NCBI RefSeq assembly: GCF_027925155.1
Contig: NZ_BSDY01000002.1
Location: 186,001 to 250,000 of the forward strand
Length of the DNA stretch: 64,000 nt
Origin: Propionigenium maris DSM 9537
Lineage (GTDB): Bacteria; Fusobacteriota; Fusobacteriia; Fusobacteriales; Fusobacteriaceae
Direction: 5' to 3'
Shown: piece after piece, positions 23,555 to 43,751 of the stretch
Layout: the number at the start of each line of letters is the position of its first letter
How positions within the stretch are numbered: position 1 is the first letter of the stretch
The notes under the pieces: generated by a model
The model's input: only the letters and a program-made list of their open reading frames with translations
What the model was told of the DNA's origin: nothing
The model's database searches: none
Program-made: the position numbers and the translations under genes

Positions 23555-23599
23555 TCTGCTCTCCTTTTAAGTATTTGTTGCTGTTAACAAAGAAAGACA

Positions 23600-23655
23600 A
23601 AAAACTTCCCTCGATTACTGAAAGATACTAAAGTCTTAAAGAAATCGAGGGAAAG
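23600..23655 (-). terminator. Stem-loop between MFS and rhodanese genes
   Basis: TTTCCCTCGATT and AATCGAGGGAA pair across a loop with a small internal hairpin (TTTAAGACTTTA region). T6 follows on the reverse strand. It lies downstream of the MFS gene stop and about 50 nt before the rhodanese start. Confidence 0.65.
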
Positions 23656-23691
23656 ATCAAAACATACTCAAAAATATTTTTACCACTTCTA

Positions 23692-24939
23692 TTAAGAAGG
23701 TGATTGCACCAGAATTTCTGCCTTCTTTTCCTTGCTGACAATTTTTAATAGAGAATAAGCTGATACAATCCCTAAGAGACTACAGGCCAAAGATAAAGAG
23801 AAAACATACTTATATGCTAGGTTTCCATAAGTATCCAACCAACCTCCTACTAATGTATAATAAAATGCGTCTGGAAGAAATCCAATTACAGAAACAAAAC
23901 CAACAACTATTCCTGTCATATTCATAGGGATATTAGATTCATCTACCGTTGCAAAGTATATTCCTCTAAATGCAAACATAAGAATTGTCATCACCAGCAT
24001 ATTTACAAGAGCTACATATACTAAAGAGGGATTTCCAGGGGTAACTAGGAAAACAGCTTGAGTTATAGCTACTAATATAAATCCTACAAATATACATCTA
24101 GTAGATGAGCCAATCTTATCTGCTAAAACACCTGCCACAGGAGAGGCTATAAATTTTATAATGTATGTTCTAAAGATAGCCGTAATGGAAACTAAAGACA
24201 TCGACATTTTAAACACTTCAGTCATGTATGGATTTAAGTATGTCAAACTGGAAAAAACCATGTATGTTGAAAAAATGATTCCACCAATCAGCCACGCTTT
24301 TGGCATCTTTAAAGCTTTTAACAAGCTTGAAAATTTAACTTGATCCTTTGATTCTACCTCTCTTTCTTCAATTACCATGTAAAGAATTACACCAATTATC
24401 ATTGAGGTAACAGAGTACATCACTGTAGCTGCTTTAAACCCTTTTACTACATCTGGAAAGCTTGAGAAGAAGTACAGTCCTAAAAATGAAAGCACTGTAC
24501 CTGCTGCTCCTCCAGCTCCCTCATAAAGACCAAATACTCTACCTTGCTCGGAGCTATCTCCTAGCATTCTTACTAACTTAATGATAGAAGCCCAGTAAGT
24601 TAGTATCGTTGTTATTCCAAATAAGAAGAATATTAAACAAAGAGTCGTGTAACTTGGAGCCATCGACATCCATATTCCTAAAGCTCCACTTGAGACAAGG
24701 GAAAAAAGTACAAGCTTTTTTGCAGAGTACTTATCTGCTATCAATCCTCCAGGAAAATATGACAGTGTTGCAACTATTCCATATATACTCAATGTATTCC
24801 CCAGCTGTTTATGGGAGAGGTTTAAAGCCTCTCTCATAGGATCATAGAATACAGACTTCATATATGGCAAACTATACATAGCAGTCGTTCCAAACCCAAT
24901 TAAAAATATAATTAAAATCTTCTTTAATCTCTCATTCAC
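23692..24939 (-). CDS. Major facilitator superfamily transporter
   Basis: Twelve-helix MFS carrier, 415 aa. The loop 2-3 motif is present as GGLIADKYSAKKLVLFS, and a related motif occurs in the second half (AGVLADKIGSSTRCIFVG). It starts 2 nt after the stop of the PLP-lyase gene, so the two are translationally linked. The context of PLP lyase and sulfurtransferase suggests transport of an amino acid or organic acid product, but no substrate can be read from the sequence. Confidence 0.88.
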   Translation of the reverse strand: MNERLKKILIIFLIGFGTTAMYSLPYMKSVFYDPMREALNLSHKQLGNTLSIYGIVATLSYFPGGLIADKYSAKKLVLFSLVSSGALGIWMSMAPSYTTLCLIFFLFGITTILTYWASIIKLVRMLGDSSEQGRVFGLYEGAGGAAGTVLSFLGLYFFSSFPDVVKGFKAATVMYSVTSMIIGVILYMVIEEREVESKDQVKFSSLLKALKMPKAWLIGGIIFSTYMVFSSLTYLNPYMTEVFKMSMSLVSITAIFRTYIIKFIASPVAGVLADKIGSSTRCIFVGFILVAITQAVFLVTPGNPSLVYVALVNMLVMTILMFAFRGIYFATVDESNIPMNMTGIVVGFVSVIGFLPDAFYYTLVGGWLDTYGNLAYKYVFSLSLACSLLGIVSAYSLLKIVSKEKKAEILVQSPS

Positions 24940-24941
24940 TC

Positions 24942-26105
24942 CTATTTCACCTCTTCACTTGTTTTATCTAAAGCATTTTTTAAATCTTCAATCAAATCTT
25001 CTGAATTCTCTAATCCAGCTGCTATCCTTACGAGTCCATTATCATATAATGAAATTAATGTATGTCCTTCTCCAAGGCTAGTGGCTATTGTTATAAGTTT
25101 TAAGTTGTTCATAATTTTTTTGGTCTTAACTACTCTATCCTCGTCACTGGTTAATTTCTTTAAGGTAAATGAGAGCACCCCACCCCCAAGTCCATTCATT
25201 TGTTTCTGACATAACTCATAATCTGGACTTGATTTTATCCCGGGATAATTAACGGTTTCTATTAAAGGATTATTTTCTAAAAATTCAGCTATTGCCAAGG
25301 CATTTTTACAATGTCTTTCAACCCTCATATCTAGAGTTCTTAATCCTCTTAAAATCAACCAAGCATTCATCGGGGTTAAACAAGCTCCTGTGAAACAAGG
25401 CATCGATGGCCACTTTATTTTATTGATTAATTCTCTGCTACCTAAAACAGCCCCTCCAATTGCATCACCATGTCCATTCATAAATTTAGTCAAACTTTGA
25501 ATAACTAAATCTGCCCCAAGTTTTGTCGGGTATTGAATAGGAGTTGGTGCAAAGGTAGAATCAACAACAAAAATAAAATCCTTTATCTCTTTTAATTTTG
25601 ATATTTTTTCTATATCAACTACCCTTAATGATGGATTTAGAGGAGACTCTACATAGACTATTTTTGTATTGTGTTTTAAATTCTTTTCTACATTTTTATA
25701 GTCGGTAGCATCTACAAATGTAACTTCAACTCCAAAGTTCATTAGACATTCTTTTAGAAATAAAGTGGTATGCGAGAATATCCCATTGGCACAAATTATA
25801 TGGTCTCCACTTTTTAATTGACTAAAAAACATCGATGTAACCGCTCCCATACCAGAAGATGTAACTAATCCTGCTTCACACCCCTCTATGAGAGCAAGAG
25901 TTGCTGCAAGTTCATCTGTTGTTGGATTTGATTCTCTGGCATAAACATGTCCCCAGTTATAGCATAAATCTTCAAAATGCTCTTGAGATGTGGCTCCATA
26001 GGTTGCCGTCTGATAGATAGGTGAAGCTAAAGATCTTGTCTCACTATCTGGTTTGTGACAACCATGAGCGAGTCTTGTTTCCAGGTTCGCTTCCTTAATA
26101 AACAT
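24942..26105 (-). CDS. Cys/Met-metabolism PLP enzyme, methionine gamma-lyase type
   Basis: Fold type I PLP enzyme, about 387 aa. PLP-phosphate motif TSSGMGAVTSMF, YARESNPTTDEL near the N-terminus, cofactor Asp in FVVDSTFAPTPIQYP and Schiff-base lysine in VIQSLTKFMNGHGDAIGG. This set belongs to cystathionine/methionine gamma-lyases. The long frame begins with a TTG at 26120, but the ribosome site AAAGGTGA lies 5 nt before the ATG at 26103-26105, which I take as the start. Substrates could be methionine, homocysteine, cystathionine or their selenium analogues. Neighbouring rhodanese and regulator genes place it in sulfur or selenium handling. Confidence 0.9.
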   Translation of the reverse strand: MFIKEANLETRLAHGCHKPDSETRSLASPIYQTATYGATSQEHFEDLCYNWGHVYARESNPTTDELAATLALIEGCEAGLVTSSGMGAVTSMFFSQLKSGDHIICANGIFSHTTLFLKECLMNFGVEVTFVDATDYKNVEKNLKHNTKIVYVESPLNPSLRVVDIEKISKLKEIKDFIFVVDSTFAPTPIQYPTKLGADLVIQSLTKFMNGHGDAIGGAVLGSRELINKIKWPSMPCFTGACLTPMNAWLILRGLRTLDMRVERHCKNALAIAEFLENNPLIETVNYPGIKSSPDYELCQKQMNGLGGGVLSFTLKKLTSDEDRVVKTKKIMNNLKLITIATSLGEGHTLISLYDNGLVRIAAGLENSEDLIEDLKNALDKTSEEVK

Positions 26106-26233
26106 ATAATCACCTTTCAAATTTTATTTTTATTACATAAGATGATTATATTTTATTTATAGATTTTCGGTTCTACTTTGGATCACAAAGCTCTTTTTTT
26201 ACATCAAAAAGTAAAGATTATTCCTCAAAACCT

Positions 26234-26893
26234 TTATAGTCTATATAAGTGCTCAAAATGGTTTTCAGATATTTTTTTTAAAATATTCTTTCCCAAATAT
26301 ACTTTTTGACCACTATTAGTTTCCACATACTCTTCCTTATAATTAATTTCTTTTATTTTTTGGATGTTCAGTATGATCCCTCTTTCCACTCTTATAAAGT
26401 GGAAATTTTTGATAAAATTCTCTATCTCTGTAAGAGATCTTCTAAGAAAATATGACTTTCCACAAACAGTAGCAGAGGACTTTTTTAGTGTTCTATTATA
26501 TGAAAAATATTCTATATCTTCTAAAGGAGTTACTACTTCTTTAAAGCTGTCGGATAAAACGATCTTATCTCTATAGTTTAATTTGTTTTTTTCTGTAAAT
26601 TCATCTATAAAGTTATCTAAAAATACATACTCTTCCCTCATATGAAAAGATAACTTTTTTATATCTCCTTCACACTTTTTGTAGAATTTTGTGTCTATTC
26701 TATCTGAAAATATATAGATTTTTTTTATCTTTTTTAAGTTTATGCATTCAGCAGAAAATATGCTGTTATCTGTTATTAAAAAACTACCTTCCAACACCTC
26801 GTCGCTCAAATCTGATATTTGCTCAATATTCAAAGAAAGAGTTTTCTTTAAAAGATAGAAAAATAAATCATCTCCATAAAATAAGCTTTTCAT
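26234..26893 (-). CDS. LytTR-type DNA-binding regulator with a degenerate receiver
   Basis: 219 aa. The C-terminal about 95 residues form a LytTR domain (DIEYFSYNRTLKKSSATV, FLRRSLTEIENFI, FIRVERGIILNIQKIKEI, YVETNSGQKVYLGKN). The N-terminal part has the hydrophobic pattern of a receiver (SLFYGDDLFFYLLKK, GSFLITDN, IYIFSD) but lacks a clear phosphoacceptor aspartate and the usual Lys, so it is probably not controlled by ordinary phosphorylation. Its start overlaps the stop of the membrane-sensor gene by one base, implying a signalling pair. The PLP-lyase gene follows after about 130 nt. Confidence 0.82.
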   Translation of the reverse strand: MKSLFYGDDLFFYLLKKTLSLNIEQISDLSDEVLEGSFLITDNSIFSAECINLKKIKKIYIFSDRIDTKFYKKCEGDIKKLSFHMREEYVFLDNFIDEFTEKNKLNYRDKIVLSDSFKEVVTPLEDIEYFSYNRTLKKSSATVCGKSYFLRRSLTEIENFIKNFHFIRVERGIILNIQKIKEINYKEEYVETNSGQKVYLGKNILKKISENHFEHLYRL

Positions 26894-28476
26894 TATTTTT
26901 CTCCCCCTTCCTCAGTATTTATTTTTTTTCTTATCATTCTTGCTACTTCCATTTTTTTATCAAAAGCATCTGTTTTCTCCATAATATTTAGCAGTTCTCT
27001 TGTATAAAAAATATCTTTTTCTAATTTCTCTATTTTTTCAGTTAATTTCTTTTCTACATTCTTATAATGATTAATCTGAAGGTTTTTTAGAATGACATTC
27101 TCTAAAATTGGAGCAATATTTAAAATCAGCTTCTTAAAATTTCTTAATTTTTTTCTATACATGAGCAAACAGGGATCTTTAACGTACATATAACCTAAAA
27201 GATTATCTTTATTTTGAATTTTTATGCCTATATCATATTTTTTTCCTTGATATATAGGTGAAAACGTAATGAAAGGATGTTCTTCATATATCCTAGTATC
27301 ATAATCTAGATCAAAAATTTCCATTTTAAACTCAATAAATCTGAATATTCTTGTAAATTCATCCTCTAAAAACAAACAAAAATTACTTAATGTTTCTATG
27401 CCTTTTAATCTTTTTAGAAATTTATCAAAATTTACTTCCTCTTGTTCTGAAAAAAATAAAATGATAAATGAAACTACTTCAACAAATATTATAATAGCTA
27501 GAAGTCCTGTAACATATCCTGTAAGAGTATTCTTTTTCACAAAATAACTTATAGTTAGAAACATTATAAAAACTCTTATTACATTAAAATTTGTTGTTTT
27601 AAAAAATTGATTATCTTCTGATAATTTAATATCTTCTAATTTCACATGAACAAACAGAATATTAATGATGAAATGTGCCATAAATTCAAAGTTCCCGTAA
27701 AGATTTAACTTATCATATACATATATATTAAATAAAAGTTGAATAAAGAACAGGAAACAATAATAGATTGATTCTATTTTTTTAATTTTATTTCTATTAT
27801 AGAAAATTGAGGCAAAATTAAAGGTGAGTATCAAGCCTATAAAGCCATTTCTCAAATAATCAAAACATATGTGTAGTCCCCATCCTGAGAATATTAAGTT
27901 TTTATCAAAAAATATATTATAAAAATCTCTTATGGATAGTGAAAGTAGTATGGCTATACCTAATATTAAAACAAATATTACTACTTCTATTACTTTAGAT
28001 TTTTTATTAAATGAATTTTCCCAAAAATATTTTATAAAACTAATACAACCGCACAAAGCAAAGACCCAGCTAAAAATTGTAAAAAGGATCTTACAACTAT
28101 CAAAAGGTAAAATATAACTGAGAGTTTCTGAACCAACAGCCAGAGAAAAATATAATGAACCAACATATAAGCCCGCTTCTTTAAAGGTCCTGCGGAATAA
28201 TATAGTCAGAAGAATAAGAAAGGCAAGATATCCACAACCTAAAAATAAGATGATATACCTTTTATAAACAAAGCTAAGTAAAATACTTGAATTTTCAGGA
28301 GCCACATCTACCTTTAGAAGATGAACTAAATCTAAAATTCTTGCGGTATCGGCATCCCCTGGTTTCACTGATAGATCCCCCATAAACTCCAATCCTACAA
28401 GAATAGTAACTACTAATGTTACTATCAGAGTAAAATCGTAGACATTATTTTTTTTTAATATTTCCATTAACTTCAT
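26893..28476 (-). CDS. Multi-spanning membrane sensor-like protein without a kinase domain
   Basis: 527 aa. Roughly the first 350 residues contain a large extracytoplasmic loop after helix 1 (residues about 33-68) and some nine membrane helices. The cytoplasmic tail (about residues 355-527) begins with a GAF-like region (ETLSNFCLFLEDEFTRIF, FSPIYQGKKYDIGIKI, NLLGYMYVKD) and ends in a coiled coil (KNVEKKLTEKIEKLEKDIF). No HisKA or HATPase motifs are present. It is translationally coupled to the LytTR regulator and is the first gene after ULU-leader copy 1. It may sense a signal and pass it to the regulator by contact. Not recognised as a named family. Confidence 0.75.
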   Translation of the reverse strand: MKLMEILKKNNVYDFTLIVTLVVTILVGLEFMGDLSVKPGDADTARILDLVHLLKVDVAPENSSILLSFVYKRYIILFLGCGYLAFLILLTILFRRTFKEAGLYVGSLYFSLAVGSETLSYILPFDSCKILFTIFSWVFALCGCISFIKYFWENSFNKKSKVIEVVIFVLILGIAILLSLSIRDFYNIFFDKNLIFSGWGLHICFDYLRNGFIGLILTFNFASIFYNRNKIKKIESIYYCFLFFIQLLFNIYVYDKLNLYGNFEFMAHFIINILFVHVKLEDIKLSEDNQFFKTTNFNVIRVFIMFLTISYFVKKNTLTGYVTGLLAIIIFVEVVSFIILFFSEQEEVNFDKFLKRLKGIETLSNFCLFLEDEFTRIFRFIEFKMEIFDLDYDTRIYEEHPFITFSPIYQGKKYDIGIKIQNKDNLLGYMYVKDPCLLMYRKKLRNFKKLILNIAPILENVILKNLQINHYKNVEKKLTEKIEKLEKDIFYTRELLNIMEKTDAFDKKMEVARMIRKKINTEEGGEK

Positions 28477-28688: not shown

Positions 28689-29027
28689 GTACGACAAAAA
28701 GCCATATAGACTATGGATATCACGATGCCATTAGCATCCTATTTTAAATTGATTAATTAAAGAATTTAATAAAATTAGAATTTAGAATTGAAAATGAAAT
28801 TAAAATGGAATTTCTACTTAGAAGGGATAAAAGCACTTATTTATCGGGAATTCTTCTAAATCTATAATTCTAATGGGTATTTACTTCTTCCAGAAGTAAG
28901 ATTTACAGATCAAAGTCATACTCTAAAAAACATGGTGTCTCCTCTCAGTTTAAATTTTATACATTACGATTAATAAATTAACACAAACCCATAATAGACG
29001 TCAATATATTTTTAAGGTTGATTTTTA
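28689..29027 (-). promoter_or_regulatory. ULU-leader element, copy 1 (upstream of sensor/LytTR operon)
   Basis: First of three near-identical elements of about 335 nt, all upstream of reverse operons. Reading the reverse strand: TTGACG, 18 nt, TAATTT (preceded by TG) as promoter; ribosome site GAGAGGAG; the 23-codon ORF at 28862-28933 with two in-frame UGA codons; a SECIS-like hairpin; a nested stem TTAGAAG...CTTCTAA; an A/T-rich stretch; hairpin GATGC-TAATG-GCATC (28724-28738); and CCATA...TATGG followed by CTTTTTG (28695-28716), a weak terminator-like structure. It ends about 215 nt before the sensor start. Conservation with the other two copies is high across the whole element, while flanks differ. 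Confidence 0.8.
28862..28933 (-). CDS. ULU leader peptide 1 (two in-frame UGA codons, putative Sec)
   Basis: 23-codon ORF. Reading UGA as selenocysteine (U), the peptide begins MFFRVULUSVN, continues LTSGRS and ends KYPLEL before TAG. The UGA codons are at 28916-28918 and 28910-28912. GAGAGGAG lies 6 nt before the ATG. From the second UGA, a perfect 8-bp hairpin (TTACTTCT / AGAAGTAA, loop GGA) begins at nt 14 and places the loop at nt 22-24, like the SECIS hairpins of saoB and saoL in this window. With ordinary termination it would be only MFFRV. Differences between the three copies of this ORF are all synonymous. Confidence 0.7.
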
Positions 29028-29363: not shown

Positions 29364-31028
29364 CTAATATCTCCTCTTTAGAATATTTACAATAAAGCTT
29401 AAAACAAGGATAAAGCATATTGCCAACACCCCGTAAGCCATGGCCAACCCTATCTCGTATTCAAATACAGCATTTACCATAGCCACAGAAATTGGCTTAT
29501 TGGATACTGTATAAAGATAGGCTGAACTTGTGTAATCTCCTATACACCTGACAAACCCCAGAAGAAACCCTGAAATGATTCCTGGCATAATAATGGGAAG
29601 GGTTATTTTTCTGAAGGTATAGACCCAGGAAGCTCCCAAGCTTTTAGAGGCTTCTTCATAGGTTGTATTCAAGCTGTACATGGAGATATTAACACTTCTG
29701 AGGATGAGGGGTAATATCCCTATAAAGTAGGAGAGGGGCAATAAAATATAGGACCCCACAAGAACCTTATTAAAGGAAAGAACACTTGGTTTATTAAATA
29801 TATTGATGAGGTTAATGGCTATGGCACTTGCCGGAAGTGCCCACGGTAACATGGTTAAAACTTCAATGAGAACTCTCAATTTATTTTTTGTCTTAACAAT
29901 TATATAGGAGCATGGAACAGCTAAAACAACACCCATAGCTCCAGCAAGAGCAGACATATTTACGCTGTTTATAATTGGTTTTAGTAAACTTGGCCTTGTA
30001 AATATCTTAATATAGTTGTCCAGAGAAAAATCCCTGGGAAAGATTTCAACCATCCATGTTCCAGGTTTAACAAATGACAGTATAAAAATAGTTATTACTG
30101 GAAGTAGTATAAATAAAATTAGAATACTTGTAAATGTTATAAAAATAAACTTTAACAGTGGGATTTCTATAGAAACCTCCTTCATTGAAGTTCCCTTTAC
30201 CTGCGATGGAAAGCTGCTTTTTTTCTCATAATATCTGCATACTAAAAGAAAGGTGAGGGCTGCCAGCATTAAAAGAACAACCTGAACAGATGCCCCTTCC
30301 AGGTTATTGTTTGATTTGGCAAAGAGTATTTGAGTTGTCAGAACTCTGAATCTGTCTCCGATCAAGCTCGGTGCTGAGAAGGATCCAATACCAGTTATAA
30401 ATGTTATTATGCTGGATGCAATCAGTGCCGGCTTAATAAACGGAAAAATAATAGAGGCAAAGATCTGATAGTTTTTAGCCCCTAAATTTTTAGCTGCTTC
30501 TATGGTGGAATAGTCTATGTGTTTAATAGCTATGGAAACATTCATATAAAAATAAATATACTGTGTATAAGCATGAACAAATAAAATCCCCCAAAACCCG
30601 GTAAATCTAAAGGGTATATCGGTAAGATTAAAAAATTTTTCAATGGATTTGGTTATAATACCGCTTTCACCATATAGCTGTATAAAGGCGATAACTATAA
30701 TAACTCCTGGAACCATAACTGGAATTAGCAGGAGTTTATTGACCATACCCTTATAGGGAAAATCAAAGTAACCTATTAAAAAAGCCAGCAAGGTGCCAAT
30801 AACTCCGCAGGTAATAACAGTGGAAAACCCAAGTAAAATTGTATTTGCAAGAGTGGCAACACTTGCCTTAACTGAAAAAAAGTTTTTATAGTGCAAAAGA
30901 GTACGTTTGCCCCCCTCTGAAAAACTCAGATTAAATGTTTTTAGAGCAGGGATCAGTATATATCCTGTTAGAAGTATTAAAAGAACAAATCCCGTTAAAT
31001 TTTCATATCTTTTCTTTGAATCAACCAT
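29364..31028 (-). CDS. Fused double-domain ABC permease, iron/FbpB type
   Basis: 554 aa, two MetI-like permease halves in one chain. The first half carries the EAA loop EAAKNLGAKNYQIFASIIFP and the second EASKSLGASWVYTFRKITLPI. About twelve membrane helices are visible. This architecture is that of FbpB/SfuB-type permeases for ferric iron and of related thiamine, phosphonate or putrescine importers (also E. coli YnjC). It follows the ATPase gene by 4 nt. No substrate is shown by the sequence. Control by ULU copy 2 and nearby rhodanese genes suggest a sulfur-, selenium- or metal-related solute; this is inference. Confidence 0.88.
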   Translation of the reverse strand: MVDSKKRYENLTGFVLLILLTGYILIPALKTFNLSFSEGGKRTLLHYKNFFSVKASVATLANTILLGFSTVITCGVIGTLLAFLIGYFDFPYKGMVNKLLLIPVMVPGVIIVIAFIQLYGESGIITKSIEKFFNLTDIPFRFTGFWGILFVHAYTQYIYFYMNVSIAIKHIDYSTIEAAKNLGAKNYQIFASIIFPFIKPALIASSIITFITGIGSFSAPSLIGDRFRVLTTQILFAKSNNNLEGASVQVVLLMLAALTFLLVCRYYEKKSSFPSQVKGTSMKEVSIEIPLLKFIFITFTSILILFILLPVITIFILSFVKPGTWMVEIFPRDFSLDNYIKIFTRPSLLKPIINSVNMSALAGAMGVVLAVPCSYIIVKTKNKLRVLIEVLTMLPWALPASAIAINLINIFNKPSVLSFNKVLVGSYILLPLSYFIGILPLILRSVNISMYSLNTTYEEASKSLGASWVYTFRKITLPIIMPGIISGFLLGFVRCIGDYTSSAYLYTVSNKPISVAMVNAVFEYEIGLAMAYGVLAICFILVLSFIVNILKRRY

Positions 31029-31032
31029 ACAC

Positions 31033-32088
31033 CTACTCCTTTAAAAGCCTTACAGAGTTTTTTGGAATTTCAATATAGACTTCTTGAAGGGGAAAAAACT
31101 TATCATTTTCCTCTAAACTATTAACTGAAGTCACCGTTACTTCAATATTTTTGACCTTAACAAGGTAATTGATAATATTCCCATTAAACTGAACCCTTTC
31201 AATGATCCCCTTAAACTCATTTACTCTTCCCGATGATCTTGCCTTTATCCCTATATGTTCAGGCCGTATTGAAGCAAACAATTTATTGGAGGGATCCTGC
31301 TCCGTATCTAGTTTAGTCTCCTCATCTATATATATACACCTAGGAGCATCGGATACACTATCTATCTTAAAAAGGTTGGTTTCTCCTATAAAATTAGCAA
31401 CAAAGGAGTTTTTGGGGTTTGAATAAATTTCACTGGGGGTCCCCACCTGAACGCAGCTTCCTCTGTTAAAGACAGCTATTTTATGGGACATGGTGAGAGC
31501 TTCCTCCTGGTCGTGGGTAACAAATATAGTTGTTATTCCAAGTTTTTGTTGCAGCAACTTGATGTCGTTTCTCATCTTTATTCTGAGTTTAGCATCTAGA
31601 TTACATAGGGGTTCATCCAGAAGCAGAATTTTAGGTTCAGTTACCAACGACCTGGCAAGAGCAACCCTCTGCTGTTCTCCCCCCGATAATTCAGATATTT
31701 TTCTGTCCTCATAGCCATTTAAGCTAACTAGCTCCAGATATTTTTCCACCCTTTTATCGATATCTTGCTTAGAAAACCTTTTAATTTTCAGGCCGTAAGC
31801 AACATTTTCATAGACAGTCATATGGGGAAATAGAGCATAGTTTTGAAATACCATTCCTATATCTCTCTTTTCAGGACTTACATTGGTTATATCTCTCTCC
31901 CCTAAAAAGATTTTTCCCTCATCCACTTTTAAAAATCCAGAGATAGCTCTGAGGATAGTGGTTTTACCGCAGCCAGAAGGCCCTAAAAATGTAAACAAAC
32001 TCCCCTTCTCTATATTTAGGTTTATATCTTCAACAGCGGTATTCCCACCGAATTTTTTTGTCAATTTTTTTATTATTACATCTTCCAT
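31033..32088 (-). CDS. ABC transporter ATPase, PotA/FbpC class
   Basis: 351 aa. Walker A GPSGCGKTTILRA, Q-loop MVFQNYALFPHMTVYENV, signature LSGGEQQRVALARSL, Walker B ILLLDEPLCNLDAKLR and the H-loop FVTHDQEEALTMS. The C-terminal 110 residues form the TOBE-type regulatory region (SIRPEHIGIKARSSG...). It forms one importer with the fused permease and the binding protein encoded upstream, separated from the latter by a terminator-like hairpin. Confidence 0.92.
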   Translation of the reverse strand: MEDVIIKKLTKKFGGNTAVEDINLNIEKGSLFTFLGPSGCGKTTILRAISGFLKVDEGKIFLGERDITNVSPEKRDIGMVFQNYALFPHMTVYENVAYGLKIKRFSKQDIDKRVEKYLELVSLNGYEDRKISELSGGEQQRVALARSLVTEPKILLLDEPLCNLDAKLRIKMRNDIKLLQQKLGITTIFVTHDQEEALTMSHKIAVFNRGSCVQVGTPSEIYSNPKNSFVANFIGETNLFKIDSVSDAPRCIYIDEETKLDTEQDPSNKLFASIRPEHIGIKARSSGRVNEFKGIIERVQFNGNIINYLVKVKNIEVTVTSVNSLEENDKFFPLQEVYIEIPKNSVRLLKE

Positions 32089-32116
32089 CCTCTGCTCCTT
32101 TATACAGCTTTATACA

Positions 32117-32138
32117 AAAAAAGGGCTGCAGCCCTTTA
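32117..32138 (-). terminator. Intercistronic hairpin after the binding-protein gene
   Basis: AAAGGGCTGCAGCCCTTT is a perfect palindromic stem running into a T-run on the reverse strand and starts within the stop codon of the binding-protein gene. It should favour binding-protein expression over ATPase and permease. Confidence 0.75.
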
Positions 32139-33173
32139 ATTGTAACCTTTAATCTCAGAATCCCATTTTCGCATCCACTGAGATTGCTTTTCCGATAACA
32201 CCTTCCAGTCAACATCCATAACCTTATACTCAATCTCCTTCATCCACTGAGGCGATTCTTCAATTGCACTATTTAAAGTCGGCATACGGTTAAATTCAGT
32301 TGCAAGTTTAGACTGGATTTTTTTGCTTCCAGCAAACTCCAGGAATTTTTTTGCAGCATTTGGGTGTTTTGAGTTTTTTATCACTCCAATGGCATCTGTA
32401 ATTACAGGGGATCCGCTTTCAGCATCTATTATCTCAAGGGGCAGACCATTATCCCTATTGGCAATAACAGAGCTTAAAACAGCAAAACTTATAGAAGCTT
32501 CCTTTCTTCCAACAGCCTGAAATTGTAGCGATCCGCTTCCATAGTATTTTTTAGTGTTCCTATCTAAGGATTTCATAAACTCCCAACCATCAGATATTCT
32601 ACCTTCCTTATCATATTGGTATAGCAGGCTTGAGTATGTGGCTTTGGCAGAAGATGATCCTGCATCTCTAAATACCAGTTTATCTTCATATTCAGGCTTT
32701 ATCAGTTCATACCAGTCCTTTGGAGCTTCCTCCTCACTGAGCATCTCACTGTTATAAAACATTACCACTGGTGTTTGGATTGTACCATACCACAGACCAC
32801 CTTCATCCTTGAATAGAGGATTAAGCTCCTCCGACCACTCTGGATGTGTTTCTTCAAAAACACCCTTCTCAGCTAGGTCAATAAATAGTGATGAAGCACC
32901 ACCATACATTACATCTGCCTGGGGAGCATCCTTTTCAGCCAGCACCCTGTCCGCCAATGCCCCCTTTAAGTTTATATACTCCACCTTTATTCCTGTTTCC
33001 CTTTCAAACTCCGAAACCACAACCTCCAATAAACTTTCTGCATGGGTAGAGTAAACAACCACTTTATCTTCCACTACCTTCTCCTTTGGTTTTTCTTCAG
33101 ACTCCTTTGAACCACAAGCAGTTAAAGCTAATACCAGACCTGCAGCTAGCAATACACTTAACAGTTTTTTCAT
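32136..33173 (-). CDS. Extracellular solute-binding lipoprotein, iron (AfuA/FbpA) type
   Basis: 345 aa. Signal peptide with lipobox ALTAC then GSKESEEK. The mature domain starts KVVVYSTHAESLLEVVVSEFERETG, typical of family 1 (iron-type) binding proteins, followed by APQADVMYGGASSLFIDLAEKG and a C-terminal lobe with SPVITDAIGVIKNSKHPNAAKKFLEF. It is the first gene of the importer operon and lies 83 nt downstream of ULU-leader copy 2. Iron, thiamine and phosphonate binders share this fold, so the ligand is open. Confidence 0.9.
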   Translation of the reverse strand: MKKLLSVLLAAGLVLALTACGSKESEEKPKEKVVEDKVVVYSTHAESLLEVVVSEFERETGIKVEYINLKGALADRVLAEKDAPQADVMYGGASSLFIDLAEKGVFEETHPEWSEELNPLFKDEGGLWYGTIQTPVVMFYNSEMLSEEEAPKDWYELIKPEYEDKLVFRDAGSSSAKATYSSLLYQYDKEGRISDGWEFMKSLDRNTKKYYGSGSLQFQAVGRKEASISFAVLSSVIANRDNGLPLEIIDAESGSPVITDAIGVIKNSKHPNAAKKFLEFAGSKKIQSKLATEFNRMPTLNSAIEESPQWMKEIEYKVMDVDWKVLSEKQSQWMRKWDSEIKGYN

Positions 33174-33249: not shown

Positions 33250-33588
33250 GTACGACAAAAAGCCATATATGGACTATGGATATCACGATGCCATTAGCAT
33301 CCTATTTGAAATTTAATAACTAAAGAATTTTAAAAAATTAGAATTTAGAATTGAAAATGAAATTAAAATGGAATTTCTACTTAGAAGGGATAAAAACACT
33401 TATTTATCGGGAATTCTTCTAAATCTATAATTCTAACGGGTATTTACTTCTTCCAGAAGTAAGATTTACAGATCAAAGTCATACTCTAAAAAACATGGTC
33501 TCTCCTTTCAGTTTAAATTTTATACATTACGATTAATAATTTAACATAAATCCATAATAAACGTCAATATATTTTTAAGGTTAGTTTT
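33250..33588 (-). promoter_or_regulatory. ULU-leader element, copy 2 (upstream of the iron-type ABC operon)
   Basis: Same layout as copy 1. The promoter is TTGACG, 18 nt, TAAATT; the ribosome site AAAGGAG precedes the UGA-containing ORF at 33425-33496. The SECIS-like hairpin and the nested stem TTAGAAG...CTTCTAA are retained, as are GATGC-TAATG-GCATC and CCATA...TATGG with CTTTTTG (33256-33279, loop 2 nt longer than in copy 3). It ends 76 nt before the SBP start codon. Homology with copy 3 continues a further 30 nt or so towards the gene (CAAAGAA...TTTTAATCACT). Confidence 0.8.
33425..33496 (-). CDS. ULU leader peptide 2 (two in-frame UGA codons, putative Sec)
   Basis: Same 23-codon peptide as copy 1 (MFFRVULUSVN..., ending KYPLEL). 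UGA codons are at 33479-33481 and 33473-33475. Relative to copy 1 the only codon difference is CCG for CCA (Pro). The ribosome site is AAAGGAG, 6 nt before the ATG. The 8-bp hairpin with GGA loop after the second UGA is unchanged. Whether ribosomes insert Sec or stop here is not shown by the sequence, but conservation continues past both UGAs. Confidence 0.7.
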
Positions 33589-38044: not shown

Positions 38045-38698
38045 TTAAATTTCAAACAACAATTTACTCACCTTAAATGCATCCTTTACCGGAAGGGAGT
38101 ATATCCCCTCTTGGATACCATTTCTCTCAATCCAGTTTTTTATTTCTTTCTTCCCCCGGAAGAAATTCATTATATTTCAGCAATCTCCAGCCCAGTTGGT
38201 ATGATTGTTTAGGTCCACATGAAGGATGTGCAGATCCTCGGGAAAATATGAAACCAAATTTCCATTGGATAACTTTAAATTGATATCTTCTCCCGTTTCA
38301 CAGCATCTGGAATTAATCTCAACATCCTGATGAAAAGTAAAGTGGGTTCCTATTGAATCTATTGCACACATGGAATAAAATTCTTTTCCGTCCCTTCTTT
38401 TTACCCTATGGGGTGTAGGCAAGGCTGAAACAGGATATATAAATTTAACATCATCATCAGCTACAAATACTCCTCTTTTCTGCATCTCTATTAAAATATC
38501 ATCTATATCTGGGTATTTATTTATTAATTTACTTTTTATATCCTTTAAAGAAGTTTTAGAAGCAATTACAGACTCCATAATAAAAAGCCTGATATTCTGA
38601 TACCTGCTCTCTAAGTCCTTATATCTCCCCTCTAAATACAGCTCCTCGCTGGTATAATCTTCAAATTCCAGCTCTAAAAATTCTTGTTTTGTATACAT
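38045..38698 (-). CDS. saoL: SaoL, MerB-like organometal lyase selenoprotein (UGA at 38177-38179 read as Sec)
   Basis: 217 aa when the UGA at 38177-38179 is read as selenocysteine; otherwise it would stop at residue 173. After Cys173-Sec174 the frame continues NIMNFFRGKKEIKNWIE and ends at TAA 38045. FYSMCAIDSIGT (Cys111, Asp114) resembles the MerB active site, and the FFRGKKEIKNWIE tail resembles the MerB sequence after its second Cys. From Cys111 to Sec174 is 63 residues, equal to Cys96 to Cys159 in MerB. This predicts cleavage of a carbon-metal bond with Sec replacing a catalytic Cys. It follows saoA with stop and start codons adjacent. The target metal is inferred, mercury or another soft metal. 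Confidence 0.88.
38147..38179 (-). promoter_or_regulatory. SECIS element of saoL
   Basis: From the UGA (38177-38179), 11 nt lead to a perfect 8-bp stem TTTCTTCC / GGAAGAAA with loop GGG (loop at nt 23-25 counted from the U of UGA). Stem position and G in the loop fit bacterial SECIS elements recognised by SelB. Confidence 0.82.
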
Positions 38699-39448
38699 CT
38701 ATACTCCTTTTAATGCTATTTCCAGCAGATTTTCAAGTTCTCTTTTATAATCTTTATACTCGTCAAATTCTCTGTTACGAGGCCTCTCCATCTCAACTTT
38801 AAAGTCTTTTATGATCTTCCCTCTGTTTTTAGACATTACTATTATCCTGTCGCTGAGGTAGAGGGCTTCCTCCACATCATGGGTGACCATTACAGTTGTA
38901 ATTTTGGTTTCCTGCCATAGTTTTTCCAGCTGTACCTGTATAGACTTTCTCATCTGAAAATCTATTGCTCCCAGTGGTTCATCCAGGAGTAAAATTTTAG
39001 GATTCCCTGCCAAGGCCCTTACAAAAGCTGTCCTCTGCTTCATTCCCCCAGATAGTTCCTTGGGATACAGGTCTTCCTTCCCTTGAAGGTGGGCAATTTT
39101 AATTAATTTTTTCAGTCGCTTTTCCATCTCATCCCTTGCTAATTTTTGTTGCTTCATGGGGTAGAGTATATTTTCCTTAACTGTCATCCATGGGAAAAGT
39201 GCATAGTTTTGAAAAACAAATCCCTTTTTTGGAGATGGCTTGGTAACTATCTCATCATCTAACCTTATCTCACCAGAGGTGGGTTTTTGAAACCCTGCCA
39301 TCATAGTCAGTAGGGTTGTTTTCCCGCACCCAGATGGTCCCAGTAAAGTTATAAATTCCCCCTTATTAAAGGAGATGTTTACATTTTGAAGTACTATATT
39401 TTCTTCACCCTTTGAAGAAAATATTTTAGATATATTTCTTATTTCCAT
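38699..39448 (-). CDS. saoA: SaoA, ABC transporter ATPase of the SAO system
   Basis: 249 aa, nitrate/sulfonate/taurine-class ATPase. Walker A GPSGCGKTTLLTM, Q-loop FVFQNYALFPWMTVKENI, signature ELSGGMKQRTAFVRAL, Walker B ILLLDEPLGAIDFQMR and H-loop MVTHDVEEALYLS. The start overlaps the true stop of saoP by one base (TAATG), which only becomes visible once the saoP UGA is read through. Together with SaoP and the two binding proteins it makes a complete importer. It contains no Sec itself. Confidence 0.9.
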   Translation of the reverse strand: MEIRNISKIFSSKGEENIVLQNVNISFNKGEFITLLGPSGCGKTTLLTMMAGFQKPTSGEIRLDDEIVTKPSPKKGFVFQNYALFPWMTVKENILYPMKQQKLARDEMEKRLKKLIKIAHLQGKEDLYPKELSGGMKQRTAFVRALAGNPKILLLDEPLGAIDFQMRKSIQVQLEKLWQETKITTVMVTHDVEEALYLSDRIIVMSKNRGKIIKDFKVEMERPRNREFDEYKDYKRELENLLEIALKGV

Positions 39449-40251
39449 TATATTTCCCTCCAGGAGGTTAGATGCTTATTTATCTGTAGAAGTCCTCTGT
39501 CTATTGTATAACCTACAACAGCAGCTAACATCATAAGAGCAATCAATCTCTCCGTCTGCATGTAAGCTTGAGCTTCTACCATTGAGTGACCGAACCCGGC
39601 ACTTGTCGCTATGAACTCCGCTCAGATAACAGACATCCACCCTGTACTGATAGAGATCCTGGCTCCAGTCAGTATATCTGGAACAACAGCTGGAAGAGTG
39701 ACATCTTTAAAGAGACTAAATCTGCTGGCACCCATACTTCTGGCTGCATTATAATAATCAGATGAAATTCCCTTTACTCCCTCTAATGTATTTAAGATAA
39801 TTGGAAATACTCCTGAAAATGCTATTAAAAATAATGTCGGTCCATCTCCAATACCAAACCAGACGATAGTCAGGGGAACCCATGCCATAACTGGGATTTG
39901 ACGTACTGCATCAATAATCCCTCCCATAGCCTTTTCAACTGCCCTGAAATATCCCATTAAAAAACCCAGGGGTAGGCCGAATAGGAGAGATAATAAAAAA
40001 CCCTTCAATACACGGCCCATTGTAATTCCCATATTTTCCAATACTTCCAAATCCACTATGCACTTAAAAAATTCTTTAATTGTAATAACTGGCGAGGGAA
40101 GCAGTAGTTCATTGTGGTAGTATATAGACATTATCTGCCATACAGTTAAGATGCCAATAAATGCTATTGATCTATTGCATATATTTTTCATCTTACCTTT
40201 TATAGGATTTTGATCCTTTGAAACCTTGGTGTAGACACATGTTTCGGCCAT
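39448..40251 (-). CDS. saoP: SaoP, ABC permease selenoprotein (UGA at 39622-39624 read as Sec)
   Basis: 267 aa after read-through. The first 209 residues carry a TauC/SsuC-type permease with about five helices and the EAA loop AARSMGASRFSLFKDVTLPA, ending GWMSVI at the UGA. The frame then continues AEFIATSAGFGHSM, exactly the conserved segment after GWxxxxAAE in this family, through two more helices to TAA at 39448-39450. A permease cut at residue 209 would lack the last helices. Sec210 faces the transport core if it follows the family topology. The start at 40251 has AAAGGAGGG upstream and overlaps saoB by 52 nt. An ATG at 40191, after the saoB stop, is an alternative. Confidence 0.9.
39585..39624 (-). 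promoter_or_regulatory. SECIS element of saoP
   Basis: Starting 21 nt after the first base of UGA: AGTG and CACT pair (39603-39600 with 39588-39585), then a single bulged T, then CCG with CGG, with loop GGTT. A bulged U and a GGU loop on a short stem closely recall the E. coli fdhF SECIS, although there the bulge is on the other side. Confidence 0.85.
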
Positions 40252-40934
40252 TTTCCCTCCTTTAAATAAATTTTAACTTCTTTTTGGTATAATTTTTCAT
40301 CATTTAATTCCTCAGCCACTTCATTATATTTTTCAATAAATTCTTTAAATTCTCTGGTTCCCATTACAGCTTTTCTCACTACCATATTATATGTAGTATA
40401 GTTCTCCCCGGCCTCTTCATAATCTCCCCTTATTGTAATTGCCTTAATGCCATCTAGTATAGCTGCATCGACTACACCTCTTTCTAGCAATACAGGAATA
40501 GAGTTAGCCTTTACAGGGTATTTTACGCTGTAATCTTTGATTAATTTTTTTTGATACTCCTTCCTTCCCTCATATGCAATGGTATCTAGATCCTTTTTAT
40601 TTTTTACAACTATATCTGAATTTTTTATTACACTTCCCAAATTTTCAAATTCCTTATTTCCTCCAAATGAGTTCACAGCATCATCGCATAAAAATGCTAT
40701 ATCCAGTACATCGCTACTCAGTGCCCACTGAGTTGTGGAACTTCAGCAATCCTGCAGTTCATACTCTCCAACTACTGTTTGAAGTTCAATATTTTTATGG
40801 AGAAGCCTGCTGACCAGAAGGCCAGTTGTATCTTTACCACTGGCGATCCTTAGTGGTTTTTCCATTCTTTTTTCCCTAGGCAGGATAAAGGCTACCATAA
40901 GCAATATGATGAGAAAGACACTAAGGTTTTTCAT
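40200..40934 (-). CDS. saoB: SaoB, ABC substrate-binding selenoprotein (UGA at 40743-40745 read as Sec)
   Basis: 244 aa after read-through, joining a 63-residue start (signal sequence LSVFLIILLMVAFILP, then LRIASGKDTTGLLVSRLLH) through Cys63-Sec64 (ELQDC-U-SSTQWALSSDVLDIAF) to a C-terminal part including VPVLLERGVVDAAILDGIKAI. The whole is a compact NMT1/SsuA-like binding protein. The Cys-Sec pair lies where ligand contacts are expected, well suited to grip a soft metal or organometal. Its start is 2 nt after the stop of the second binding-protein gene. The C-terminal half starts inside one continuous frame, so this is not a pseudogene. Confidence 0.9.
40716..40745 (-). promoter_or_regulatory. 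SECIS element of saoB
   Basis: Nine nt after the UGA (40743-40745), ACTCAGTG and CACTGAGT form a perfect stem with a GG core loop (effectively GGGC with a 7-bp stem). The loop lies at nt 20-23 from the U of UGA. It is the strongest hairpin of the four SECIS elements here. Confidence 0.87.
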
Positions 40935-40936
40935 CT

Positions 40937-41989
40937 TTATCTATCTAATTCCTGAGCTTTTGCATACCATGAATCATAGCTCATTCCCAATGGGAAAGCT
41001 TTCTCAATTTTTTCAGCTATAAACTTATCAAAATCAGGCACATTAGCTTCAGCATAGATCGATTCATCTACAATGTTTTCATACTTGACTTCCTTTGAAA
41101 TAAAGTCGTTTTCCTGTACCCACTCCAATTCATTTCTGATCTCTTGTGGATCCAGTTTCCATGTTAGGGTCCTTCCCTCTCCTACAGTTTTTTTATAGAT
41201 TGTACTTACAGCAACCTCCAATGGAACATTGTAGTTATCGGCAAAGATCTCAGCTGATTTTAAGGGGTGCTCATAGATATACTGAATTGCTTTAGCATGG
41301 GCTAATATCATTTTTTTAGCCAGCTCTCTGTGTTCTTCAATAAACTTTTTATTCAAAGTGTATGTACAGCATACTCCCCATTTACCGTTTAATAACTTAT
41401 TTTCAGTTTCCATAATCTTTCCGATGCCTTGATACTCTGCCATGGATGCCCATGGATCACATGCTGTAAACCCCTTGATCTCTCCCATTCTAAGAGCAGT
41501 CAGTGCATCTGTTGATGACCCTATATCGATTCCCTGATAATTTTCTCCCTCTACTGGCAGGTTTAGATTTTTTGCAATTTGAGTCCAGCCAGTTGATCTT
41601 TCAGGATGGGTACCGATGGCAAGCTTTTCACCGATTAAATCCTCAGGTTTCTCAACATCGTTAGCAACAACCAGATAATATGATCCTCCTTTATGGTTAT
41701 TTGCACCAATTACAAGGGGGGCACCCTTGAGCTGGGATCTGAATACATTGTTAACCCCGATATATCCCACATCCATTTGTCCTGCAGCCATTGCCTGGGG
41801 AACCTTTCCATTCCCGCTGATATCTACTGAAAGTCCCATATTCTCAAATATCCCGGCATCTTTAGCAATAACCGATGCAGTCATATGGTCACAGTTGTAG
41901 TATCCCAGTTTTACTGTATAATCCTCTGCCTTTTCTTCACCACACCCTAAAAATGCCAGTAGGGACAACCCAAGTATAAATTTTTTCAT
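40937..41989 (-). CDS. NMT1/SsuA-like substrate-binding lipoprotein of the SAO operon
   Basis: 350 aa. Lipobox FLGC followed by GEEKAEDY. The mature protein starts VKLGYYNCDHMTASVIAKDAGIFENMG, the opening of nitrate/sulfonate/taurine binding proteins, then AMAAGQMDVGYIGVNNVF and ACDPWASMAE. Cys and His in NCDHM and the Cys pair in WGVCCTYTLNKKFIEE are unusual for this family and could bind a thiophilic metal. It belongs to the importer SaoA/SaoP, probably alongside SaoB. I recall a family label SaoX for a companion binding protein but am not certain, so no symbol is given. No in-frame UGA occurs. Confidence 0.88.
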   Translation of the reverse strand: MKKFILGLSLLAFLGCGEEKAEDYTVKLGYYNCDHMTASVIAKDAGIFENMGLSVDISGNGKVPQAMAAGQMDVGYIGVNNVFRSQLKGAPLVIGANNHKGGSYYLVVANDVEKPEDLIGEKLAIGTHPERSTGWTQIAKNLNLPVEGENYQGIDIGSSTDALTALRMGEIKGFTACDPWASMAEYQGIGKIMETENKLLNGKWGVCCTYTLNKKFIEEHRELAKKMILAHAKAIQYIYEHPLKSAEIFADNYNVPLEVAVSTIYKKTVGEGRTLTWKLDPQEIRNELEWVQENDFISKEVKYENIVDESIYAEANVPDFDKFIAEKIEKAFPLGMSYDSWYAKAQELDR

Positions 41990-42017
41990 TCTTTTTCTCC
42001 TTTATTGATTAATTTAT

Positions 42018-42452
42018 TTAACAACATTCATCCATCCCCTCTCCAAAGAGGTCTATGATCCTGTTATCTTCTATTCTGTATATTGCATACCCCAACTTGC
42101 TTCCCTTATAACCTGAAACTATAAACTCCATTTGAGCTTTTTCATCGATATTTTTTAACTTAATACTCTGTCTTTCAACAGGGGCTTTCACACTGCTGGT
42201 CAATCTCTCTGAGCCTCCCAGAACGACAACCATTCTTTTTTCAGACTTGGAGACTTCATAGATAATTATCAGATCACCAATTCCGTCATCTGTAATATCT
42301 CCCTCCTTGGTGAGAATAACCCTATTTGAGTATTCATCTTGAAATATTTTTAATAGTGGATTTTTTTGGTCTATATCTTCCTGGAAGATTTCCTGTGAAG
42401 AATAGGTATAGAAGATAAACCCGATAAAAAAGATAAAAATAACTTTTCTCAT
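42018..42452 (-). CDS. saoC: SaoC, exported protein ending in Cys-Cys
   Basis: 144 aa with an N-terminal hydrophobic segment (VIFIFFIGFIFYTYS), a beta-rich domain (ILTKEGDITDDGIGDLIIIYEV, MVVVLGGS) and the extreme C-terminus DECC. The two terminal codons are TGT TGT before TAA. As I recall, SaoC is defined as a protein ending in Cys-Cys or Cys-Sec, so this is the all-cysteine form. A C-terminal vicinal Cys pair resembles the metal-handling tail of MerA. Its start overlaps the saoE stop by 4 bases (ATGA). The DGIGD segment recalls calcium-binding FG-GAP-like loops. Confidence 0.85.
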   Translation of the reverse strand: MRKVIFIFFIGFIFYTYSSQEIFQEDIDQKNPLLKIFQDEYSNRVILTKEGDITDDGIGDLIIIYEVSKSEKRMVVVLGGSERLTSSVKAPVERQSIKLKNIDEKAQMEFIVSGYKGSKLGYAIYRIEDNRIIDLFGEGMDECC

Positions 42453-43510
42453 GCCATCACTCTCCTCCTTACCACAGGTAAAACAGATTTTACTGCAAGT
42501 AAGATAATCATCATGGAGGATATATATTTAATATATTCCGGTGGCTGAATAAGCAGGGCATTGGCAGCTTCAATAGAACCTAAGTTCTTATTAAAGTCAA
42601 TGACTGGTTTAAAATCCACCAATAAAATATTTGTTAGATATCCTACTCCCAGAGATGATATAACCATTGTTGTGGAGTAGATGACAACCGTTCTCTTTCC
42701 CATAAGTTTATACATACTGAGTAATTCTGGCAGATTCGTTGCAGTACCTGCCATTAAAAATGTTACGGCTACACCGGGAGCAGCTCCACTGGCAACAAGA
42801 GCAGCAATAAAGGGAATATGCCCCACTGCACATACATACATTATAGCCGCCAGGATAGTTATACTTCCCAGGGAGAGTACGCTAGGATCCCCCAGATATC
42901 TTTCAATATAACCCTTTGGAAAAACAGTGAATAAAAATCCAGCCATAAGGATACCTAAAACCACATATTTACTTACAACAAGTGCCAGATCATTAAATGC
43001 CCAGTTAAACCCATCTATTATTTTTTCCTTAAAACTTCTGTCATCATCGTAATCAGACTGGATAAACTCATCCATACCAGGAGCATGAAGCTCATCCCCT
43101 CCAAATTTATTTCCGATTACTCCGATTAAAAATGGCAGACAGAAACCAGTCAAAACATAGATACTGGCTATCTCAGGTCCAAGGAGTCCAAAAGCAAGCA
43201 AAACTGCCACAGGATTAATCATAGGAGCTGATGTCATAAAGGCCAAAACAGGACCCAGGTAGGCTCCTGAAAAGTACATGCTCATGCCAAGAGGTATAAC
43301 TCCGCAACTGCATATGGGAAGGAGCATTCCAGATAGTGTGCTTTTAAAGACTGAAGATAGTTTCGTATTCCCAAGCATCCTCTGAAACTTTAAGGGATTC
43401 AGTATATTTCTTAAGAATCCAGCCAGTAAAAAACTAAATACCAGCCATATAGAGGCTGAATTTAAAATCTCAAATGAACTCTTCAATATTTCTTCTAAAA
43501 ACTTTATCAT
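42449..43510 (-). CDS. saoE: SaoE, ArsP-like organometal permease
   Basis: About 353 aa, DUF318/ArsP-type membrane permease with some ten helices. The hallmark PICSCGVIPLG lies in the first half, followed by FMTSAPMINPVAVLLAFGLLG. In the second half VCAVGHIPFIAALVASGAAPGVAVTFLMAGTATN splits the repeat. ArsP proteins export organoarsenicals using cysteines in the CSCG motif, so SaoE is probably the efflux arm of this system. The frame opens at 43525, but only the ATG at 43508-43510 has a ribosome site (GAGG), so I prefer that start. It follows saoT by 1 nt. Confidence 0.87.
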   Translation of the reverse strand: MIKFLEEILKSSFEILNSASIWLVFSFLLAGFLRNILNPLKFQRMLGNTKLSSVFKSTLSGMLLPICSCGVIPLGMSMYFSGAYLGPVLAFMTSAPMINPVAVLLAFGLLGPEIASIYVLTGFCLPFLIGVIGNKFGGDELHAPGMDEFIQSDYDDDRSFKEKIIDGFNWAFNDLALVVSKYVVLGILMAGFLFTVFPKGYIERYLGDPSVLSLGSITILAAIMYVCAVGHIPFIAALVASGAAPGVAVTFLMAGTATNLPELLSMYKLMGKRTVVIYSTTMVISSLGVGYLTNILLVDFKPVIDFNKNLGSIEAANALLIQPPEYIKYISSMMIILLAVKSVLPVVRRRVMA

Positions 43511-43511
43511 C

Positions 43512-43751
43512 TTAAACCGCCTCATCGATTGCTTTTTTTATTATCTCTTCGGAAAGGGTCTGGTATTTTTTTGTTTCGTTAATAATAAGAGTGGATTTCA
43601 TCACTGCTCCATATTTTTTTAAGTAGCCAAAATCCTTTCCTGCTTTATAGATCTTTGCTGTTAATCCCTTTTTTCTAGCATAATCTTCCACGAAGACTTC
43701 AAATTTAGTGCATCATGGACATGCATTGATAAACTCTATTTTTTCTTTCAT
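43512..43751 (-). CDS. saoT: SaoT, small thioredoxin-like selenoprotein with CPUC motif (UGA at 43713-43715)
   Basis: 79 aa when UGA is read as Sec. The N-terminus is MKEKIEFINACPUCTKFEVF, a beta strand followed by a CxxC-like motif with Sec at residue 13 between Cys11-Pro12 and Cys14. The remainder (GLTAKIYKAGKDFGYLKKYG, MKSTLIINETKKYQTLSEE) fits a compact thioredoxin-like domain with a missing cis-Pro region or short version. Without read-through only 12 residues would be made, so conventional ORF calling misses the gene. It lies 36 nt after the double-cubane protein gene. A redox or metal-transfer role is inferred. Confidence 0.88.
43680..43715 (-). promoter_or_regulatory. SECIS element of saoT
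   Basis: TCTTC and GAAGA (43696-43692 with 43688-43684) form a 5-bp stem with loop GTG. The loop lies at nt 25-27 from the U of UGA. It is the smallest of the four but has the required loop position and G. Confidence 0.7.

Follow-up and report, generated by a model that had tools for sequence, protein, structure and literature searches.

Eight operons of Propionigenium maris DSM 9537 are headed by leaders carrying a short open reading frame (ORF) with two in-frame UGA codons, and we propose, with a probability of roughly 70%, that each leader is a ribosome-mediated attenuator that senses the supply of selenocysteine (Sec)-tRNA through these putative tandem Sec codons. In a wider reading, the leaders make up a regulon spanning the genome, and selenium status is gauged by translation through tandem UGAs instead of by a protein regulator or metabolite aptamer, which brings operons for selenium uptake, SAO, and sulfurtransferases under its control; we regard this as probable, if only modestly so. 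Three of the copies (c1 to c3) lie in the window, that is, the whole 64,000-nucleotide stretch analyzed here (contig NZ_BSDY01000002.1, positions 186,001 to 250,000), to which all coordinates refer unless another locus is named.

Both strands of the three stretches were read. The leader ORF lies on the minus strand, and the plus strand is closed by stops in all three. The minus-strand reading is ATG TTT TTT AGA GTR TGA CTT TGA TCT GTR AAY CTT for codons 1 to 12 and ACT TCT GGA AGA AGT AAA TAC CCR TTA GAA TTA TAG for codons 13 to 24, and the peptide common to c1, c2, and c3 is MFFRVULUSVNLTSGRSKYPLEL* (U denotes UGA). Copy c2 (33425-33496, with UGAs at 33479-33481 and 33473-33475) heads an ABC transporter operon, c1 (28862-28933, with UGAs at 28916-28918 and 28910-28912) heads genes for a membrane protein and a LytTR regulator, and c3 (45312-45383, with UGAs at 45366-45368 and 45360-45362) heads the double-cubane-cluster protein (DCCP) and SAO operon. 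A sigma-70-like promoter (TTGACG...TAAATT, 9/12, with TG before the second hexamer) and the Shine-Dalgarno (SD) sequence AAAGGAG occupy 33497-33567 upstream of c2 on the same strand; the number of promoter-like sites was not above that in shuffled sequences.

An earlier note on this DNA, which named no strand, had claimed that the three ORFs differ only at synonymous third positions, all 3' of both UGAs, and that their noncoding flanks carry indels and other substitutions, which was borne out for c1 to c3. The sole difference between the c1 and c2 ORFs is CCA/CCG, and GTA/GTG and AAT/AAC are the sole differences between c1 and c3. The ORF differs by 1.4 to 2.8%, compared with 6 to 8% in the promoter, 17% in the SD spacer, and 5 to 11% in stretch 135-190, and a 1-nt deletion is present directly behind the c3 ORF. 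Three synonymous changes alone are weak evidence of coding; the synonymous count observed would arise by chance with a probability of about 0.18 in one of the two pairs and 0.03 in the second.

Eight leader copies were identified in the genome of P. maris by pattern matching, blastn, and a covariance model. Those outside the window are c4 (contig 32; MHYRVULUSINLTSGRSKHPLEL*), c5 (contig 10; LLRFUVUCEKITSGRSKYPREL*, with a TTG start and UGA as the final stop), c6 (contig 47; MKKYULUYLNLTSGGSDGLIKDK*), c7 (contig 19; MFYUNUSWAKASGGSYKIYCRWIV*), and c8 (contig 25; KKNYUNUQLSKVSGGNCKINCKWIA*, with a GTG start). All eight copies have a Shine-Dalgarno sequence, a start codon, and UGA-NNN-UGA, with no in-frame TAA or TAG ahead of the final stop, and their ORFs span 22 to 26 codons. 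The start codon varies (ATG, TTG, GTG), as does the identity of the final stop (TAG, TGA, TAA), the position of which is kept, and no frame-breaking indels were found among the eight. Weak matches elsewhere in the genome (L269 and L270, on C1 and C2) lacked a UGA-x-UGA ORF and were rejected.

As c1 to c3 are 91 to 95% identical across about 350 to 380 bp (they cannot be aligned past +240) and the family is limited to one genome, the leaders could be a recently spread, functionless repeat, a duplicated cassette whose copies are similar by descent. However, c4 to c8 are strongly diverged and still keep the UGAs, the hairpin, and the spacing, compensatory changes have occurred, and every copy lies upstream of genes in the direction of the operon, mostly chalcogen-related ones, so we find this explanation scarcely credible. 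Because the eight copies are paralogues of one genome and the other genomes searched (97 Fusobacteriota, 391 Clostridia-type, and 395 further ones) yielded no orthologue, the support for the attenuator is that of a paralogue comparison, which may include the effects of gene conversion.

The coding constraint through UGA proposed in the earlier note is only suggestive from three copies but is supported when all eight are considered. After the second UGA and outside the hairpin, c1 and c4 differ by 3 synonymous changes against 0.77 expected (P = 0.03), with 2 nonsynonymous changes, and c1 and c5 by 4 synonymous changes against 0.93 expected (P = 0.007), with 4 nonsynonymous changes. Across all nonhairpin codons, c7 and c8 differ by 3 synonymous changes against 1.0 expected (P = 0.07). 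The baseline of this test is random substitution, hairpin codons were left out, and the counts of changes are modest. The restriction to synonymous change describes c1 to c3 and does not extend to the eight copies, among which nonsynonymous changes are present; none of them shows the outcome that would have spoken against coding, namely, nonsynonymous change at the neutral rate or insertions and deletions past the UGAs.

The final stop ends 13 to 19 nt before the conserved motif GATARATRAGTG in 8/8 copies, despite the differing lengths of the ORFs. In shuffles, such placement was obtained at 0.06 to 0.14 per copy (product 8.5e-5, using one copy per subfamily), although the 13- to 19-nt range was read from the data and chosen after the fact. 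The residues that follow the UGAs are weakly conserved between subfamilies. No homologue with Cys at a UGA position was found: a TGN-allowing pattern applied to 98 Fusobacteriota gave chance matches only, and RICLCSVN matches in Leptotrichia, which lie within a conserved RuvX-like gene, were likewise rejected as chance. The leader peptide matched no NCBIfam profile, which is a weak test for so short a query.

Directly behind the UGAs, all copies have a 6- to 7-bp hairpin with a GGN triloop (GGA, GGG, or GGU in 8/8 copies), the loop G of which follows the second UGA at 21 nt and the first at 27 nt. The hairpin is located at 33444-33462 in c2 (UUACUUCU-GGA-AGAAGUAA), 28881-28899 in c1, and 45331-45349 in c3, in each case on the minus strand. 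Among the seven distinct copies, 4/7 stem pairs are altered on both sides, which is compensatory; the covariation score was matched by 0/500 shuffles, and slid controls were without double changes. The shuffles ignore relatedness, the alignment rests only on sequence, and the signal was weaker on an alignment fitted to the first model with c8 left out. The geometry was met by 8 of 4,077 TGA triplets in ~125 kb, namely, five leaders, SelD, and two others.

According to a bacterial SECIS model (PMC13188914), the UGA-to-loop distance is 16 to 37 nt, the upper stem has 4 to 16 bp, and the minimum free energy is ≤ -7.5 kcal/mol. The leader hairpins meet the published criteria in their distances and stem lengths, and the 54-nt leader stretches fold at -8.0 to -11.4, while the c5 and c8 stretches alone favor other structures. 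Within the same genome, hairpins of 6 bp also follow the in-frame UGAs of selD (GGA loop, +20) and of a grdB-like gene (GGU loop, +21). The leader element thus resembles the SECIS of selenoprotein genes, a hairpin 20 to 27 nt past the UGA with 6 to 7 bp and a GGN loop; it differs in sitting within an ORF of only 22 to 26 codons, in serving two UGAs, and in being followed by further conserved hairpins. By geometry the hairpin is a putative SECIS, and binding of SelB is inferred without binding data.

In Escherichia coli, a SECIS-like SelB-binding element is located upstream of selAB, so that there, too, an RNA belonging to the selenium machinery sits in a 5' leader and controls selenium genes. 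To our knowledge, no UGA-containing leader ORF is associated with that element, whereas translation of the ORF appears central to the P. maris leader. The hairpin might still serve solely as a SelB docking site, repressing or activating in cis with no appreciable read-through of the UGAs, as its geometry is that of true SECIS elements and the genome encodes SelB. We consider this improbable, as it leaves unexplained the two in-frame UGAs, the SD sequence and start codon, the synonymous excess, and the stop kept relative to the downstream hairpin II.

The genome encodes two tRNA-Sec genes with a UCA anticodon, and selD, selA, and selB form one cluster, all above curated cutoffs; both selD and the gene encoding GrdA carry an in-frame UGA. 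The reading of the in-frame UGAs of the leader as Sec is strongly supported, while insertion itself is inferred from sequence. Coding constraint is held to exist on the combined grounds of the synonymous excess, the kept stop position, the covarying hairpin at the SECIS position, and this full Sec machinery. The two tRNA-Sec genes are ~29 kb apart on one contig (contig 7). Two per genome seems unusual. A contamination of 7.64% is listed for the assembly.

The ORF is followed by further conserved structure. Hairpin II lies just 3' of the stop (minus strand; 33380-33423 in c2, 28817-28860 in c1, and about 45268-45311 in c3) and holds GATARATRAGTGYTTTTATC within an AGAAG/CTTCT stem; among the copies the stem varies (AGAAG/CTTCT, GAGAAG/CTTCTC, and AAGAAAG/CTTTCTT), and GATARATRAGTGYTTTTATC is kept. 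As hairpin II begins a few bases past the stop, a ribosome at the final stop would cover its 5' strand. The U-rich stretch behind it is low in G, but its C content is merely 11 to 20%, so that a rut or Rho-loading site there is no more than a possibility. Hairpin III (GATGC-TAAT-GGCATC and variants) is found some 80 to 100 nt past hairpin II. In c2, it reads GGATGC-TAAT-GGCATC...ATCC and, together with an overlapping terminator-like CCATA..TATGG-CTTTTT, forms the 3' end of the element (33256-33303); the corresponding regions are 28696-28740 in c1 and 45146-45191 in c3, all on the minus strand. In c1 to c4, the outer pair of hairpin III (GGAT/ATCC; GGGT/ACCC in c4) shares bases with the terminator-like structure, and conservation stops sharply after its U-run, at about +240.

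A terminator scanner reported one terminator, in the c4 leader. A fold scan for terminator-like hairpins gave candidates in c1 to c5 and c8; c7 showed weak pairing only, and c6 had no candidate. In the absence of a uniform terminator, the output may differ between copies, be Rho-dependent, or be translational, and the putative expression platform is only partly resolved. A second start-like motif, AGGRNNCYAATGG, with its AUG in the loop of hairpin III, is conserved in most leaders (also at ~2075-2095 of locus L103), while the peptides that would start there show no conservation.

Hairpins II and III are strongly conserved, and a stem constrains sequence whether it is coding or not, which could also be reconciled with an ORF of three to five codons that ends at the first UGA, the remainder being a structured RNA such as a riboswitch or protein-binding leader in which the downstream frame is accidental. 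This is difficult to accept given that the second UGA is invariant, that the frame is open to a position-kept stop in 8/8 copies (the 8.5e-5 above, with its post hoc range), that synonymous changes are in excess, and that no Rfam covariance model matched the leaders even at lax E values. We thus attach little weight to this possibility.

The attenuator proposed here would be expected to head genes tied to the residue it senses. Behind c3, on the minus strand, the first gene encodes a double-cubane-cluster anaerobic reductase (NF040772; 43788-44936), and it is followed by genes for the efflux transporter SaoE (NF040736; 42449-43525), the Cys-Cys-COOH protein SaoC (NF040734; 42018-42452), the substrate-binding subunit SaoX (NF040735; 40937-41989), the selenoprotein SaoB (40203-40934; in-frame UGA at 40743-40745, QDCUSST), the selenoprotein permease SaoP (39448-40251; UGA at 39622-39624, GWMSVIUAEF), the ATPase SaoA (NF040729; 38699-39448), and the selenoprotein SaoL, a MerB-like lyase (38045-38698; UGA at 38177-38179, GDCU) with the SECIS UUUCUUCC-GGG-GGAAGAAA. 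SaoE, SaoC, SaoX, SaoB, SaoA, and SaoL scored above curated cutoffs, and SaoP, scored as a UGA-truncated ORF, fell just under. Plain ORF calling in this region (38045-44936) truncates or splits the UGA-containing genes for SaoB, SaoP, and SaoL. The operon behind c3 thus has genes matching those of the described SAO system, the selenocysteine-assisted organometallic gene cluster (Haft & Gwadz 2023, as cited in PMC13188914). The leader is not known to be part of that system.

The transporter behind c2 (29364-33173, minus strand) comprises a substrate-binding protein, an ATPase, and a double permease; by similarity it is of the 2-aminoethylphosphonate type, but under cutoffs, and no substrate was assigned. 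Copy c1 is followed (22244-28476, minus strand) by genes for a 527-amino-acid membrane protein, the LytTR regulator, a Cys/Met-metabolism pyridoxal phosphate lyase, an MFS transporter, and a rhodanese. Elsewhere in the genome, c7 heads the binding protein of a TIGR04553 "putative selenate ABC transporter" (324 bits; cutoff, 250) and its ABC partners, c8 heads a C_GCAxxG_C_C protein and a TehA-like permease, and c5 and c6 each head rhodaneses. The genes behind c4, named from sequence and not by profile, encode a dehydratase activator, a double-cubane-type reductase, a rhodanese, ABC proteins, and corrinoid methyltransferases. At 12030-19834 of locus L065, behind c4, methyltransferases of the uroporphyrinogen-decarboxylase-like type form a long series together with a corrinoid protein and a corrinoid-activation-like protein, likewise identified from sequence; the substrates are possibly methylated chalcogen compounds. 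The expected tie to the sensed residue is seen in the selenate-type substrate-binding protein, the SAO selenoproteins, and the C_GCAxxG_C_C protein, while the rhodaneses are only plausibly tied to Sec supply. Separately from these leaders, two tandem lysine riboswitch aptamers (53140-53545, minus strand) precede an NhaC-type antiporter-like gene (51334-53064).

That all targets look chalcogen-related would also be compatible with genuine small selenopeptides, either UxU redox or metal-binding peptides or precursors, that are cotranscribed with the operons, with any regulation being incidental. Sec decoding would be needed equally, and two-Sec motifs are known in selenoproteins (review table). 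However, no residues beyond UxU and the SECIS-constrained SG[RG] are conserved between subfamilies; what is conserved are hairpins II and III and the distance from stop to hairpin. Furthermore, long structured leaders with terminator-like hairpins come after the ORF, and no maturase was recognized among the nearby ORFs inspected. A selenopeptide function is accordingly unlikely, though it cannot be dismissed.

The earlier note had called for homologues across the Fusobacteriota to be collected, which succeeded only within the genome itself: beside the eight paralogues, no copy of the leader was found in 97 other Fusobacteriota. Likewise, no copy was found in 391 Clostridia-type genomes (the class of a Clostridiales genome) or in 395 genomes sampled from the phylum of a Desulfobulbaceae genome, and blastn gave no match in plasmids or phages. 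Two covariance-model matches in Clostridia (L271 and L272) were attributed to chance, being in or beside ordinary genes without a leader ORF. A pattern scan over 84,980 genomes is not a negative result, as only the matches listed were screened; among these, the screened ones were chance-like (one, for example, lies inside a miaB-like gene), and viral contigs with the leader pattern yielded nothing convincing on the same screen.

A different ORF of 60 to 70 codons with one UGA was found ahead of the TIGR04553 transporter gene in three Leptotrichiaceae-like genomes (L277 in G085, L278 in G086, and L280 in G066), the family of which was assigned by inference. One example reads ...ALCSUELTELKRAGCSLC..., and the motif is U...LKxAGCxLC. 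It is accompanied by a strong SECIS-type hairpin of 8 bp with a GGY loop at +24 or +27, in which one pair has changed from A-U to U-A in a compensatory manner, and selD is in the same gene cluster as the transporter in 2/3 of these genomes. This ORF had no Pfam or NCBIfam match above the cutoff, and no such leader was found ahead of the TIGR04553 transporter in two same-family relatives of P. maris. The presence of a different UGA-containing ORF before the same transporter suggests that Sec sensing of this kind may have evolved on several occasions.

Regulation of amino acid biosynthesis by ribosome-mediated attenuation is well established for the trp, his, and cysteine leaders, in which a leader peptide senses the amino acid. 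The P. maris leaders share with these a short, SD-bearing ORF at the start of the transcript in which codons for the limiting residue stand in tandem, a structured RNA region behind the ORF, and structural genes tied to the supply of that residue. They differ in that the sensed codon would be UGA, which needs SelB and a SECIS-type hairpin, in that shortage should result in release and not in plain stalling, and in that the regulon consists of eight separate operons.

In the proposed mechanism, both UGAs of UGA-NNN-UGA would be decoded as Sec by SelB and Sec-tRNA-Sec, under the direction of the GGN-loop hairpin that immediately follows. With Sec-tRNA plentiful, the ribosome would clear both UGAs and reach the final stop, where its footprint would mask hairpin II on its 5' strand. 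If Sec were in short supply, the ribosome would be released, or paused, at the first UGA, >50 nt upstream, leaving hairpin II free to form. How hairpins II and III fold would then determine whether transcription proceeds into the chalcogen genes (the selenium transporter, the SAO operon, rhodaneses, and others). The sequence itself shows the ORF, its paired UGAs, the SECIS-type hairpin with compensatory changes, the Sec machinery, the placement of the stop, the conserved structures downstream, and the chalcogen-related operon context. Sec insertion, ribosome-dependent refolding, control of termination, and its direction are all inferred, as there are no expression, ribosome-profiling, or peptide data.

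We lean slightly, at odds of about three to two, toward expression being on under Sec shortage, given that a selenate-type transporter is among the targets. The opposite, expression confined to times of sufficient Sec, could suit the SAO selenoprotein operon. That the two directions each fit different targets, and that one hairpin must serve two UGAs, are counterpoints to the attenuator as proposed.

Leader-peptide attenuation and SECIS elements are each known, and their combination in a Sec-sensing leader appears to be new: no described precedent was found in Rfam, NCBIfam, a 2026 review, or the papers found, although a prior mention is not excluded. Selenium sensing in bacteria, and the regulation of selenium uptake, are still largely unexplained. 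If the proposed mechanism is correct, the leader would be the counterpart of the trp leader for the 21st amino acid, with Sec codons serving regulation rather than catalysis. It would also provide a genetic handle for selenium genes, as anything behind such a leader would be a candidate, and would hint at what the orphan transporters, the rhodaneses, and the SAO operon do.
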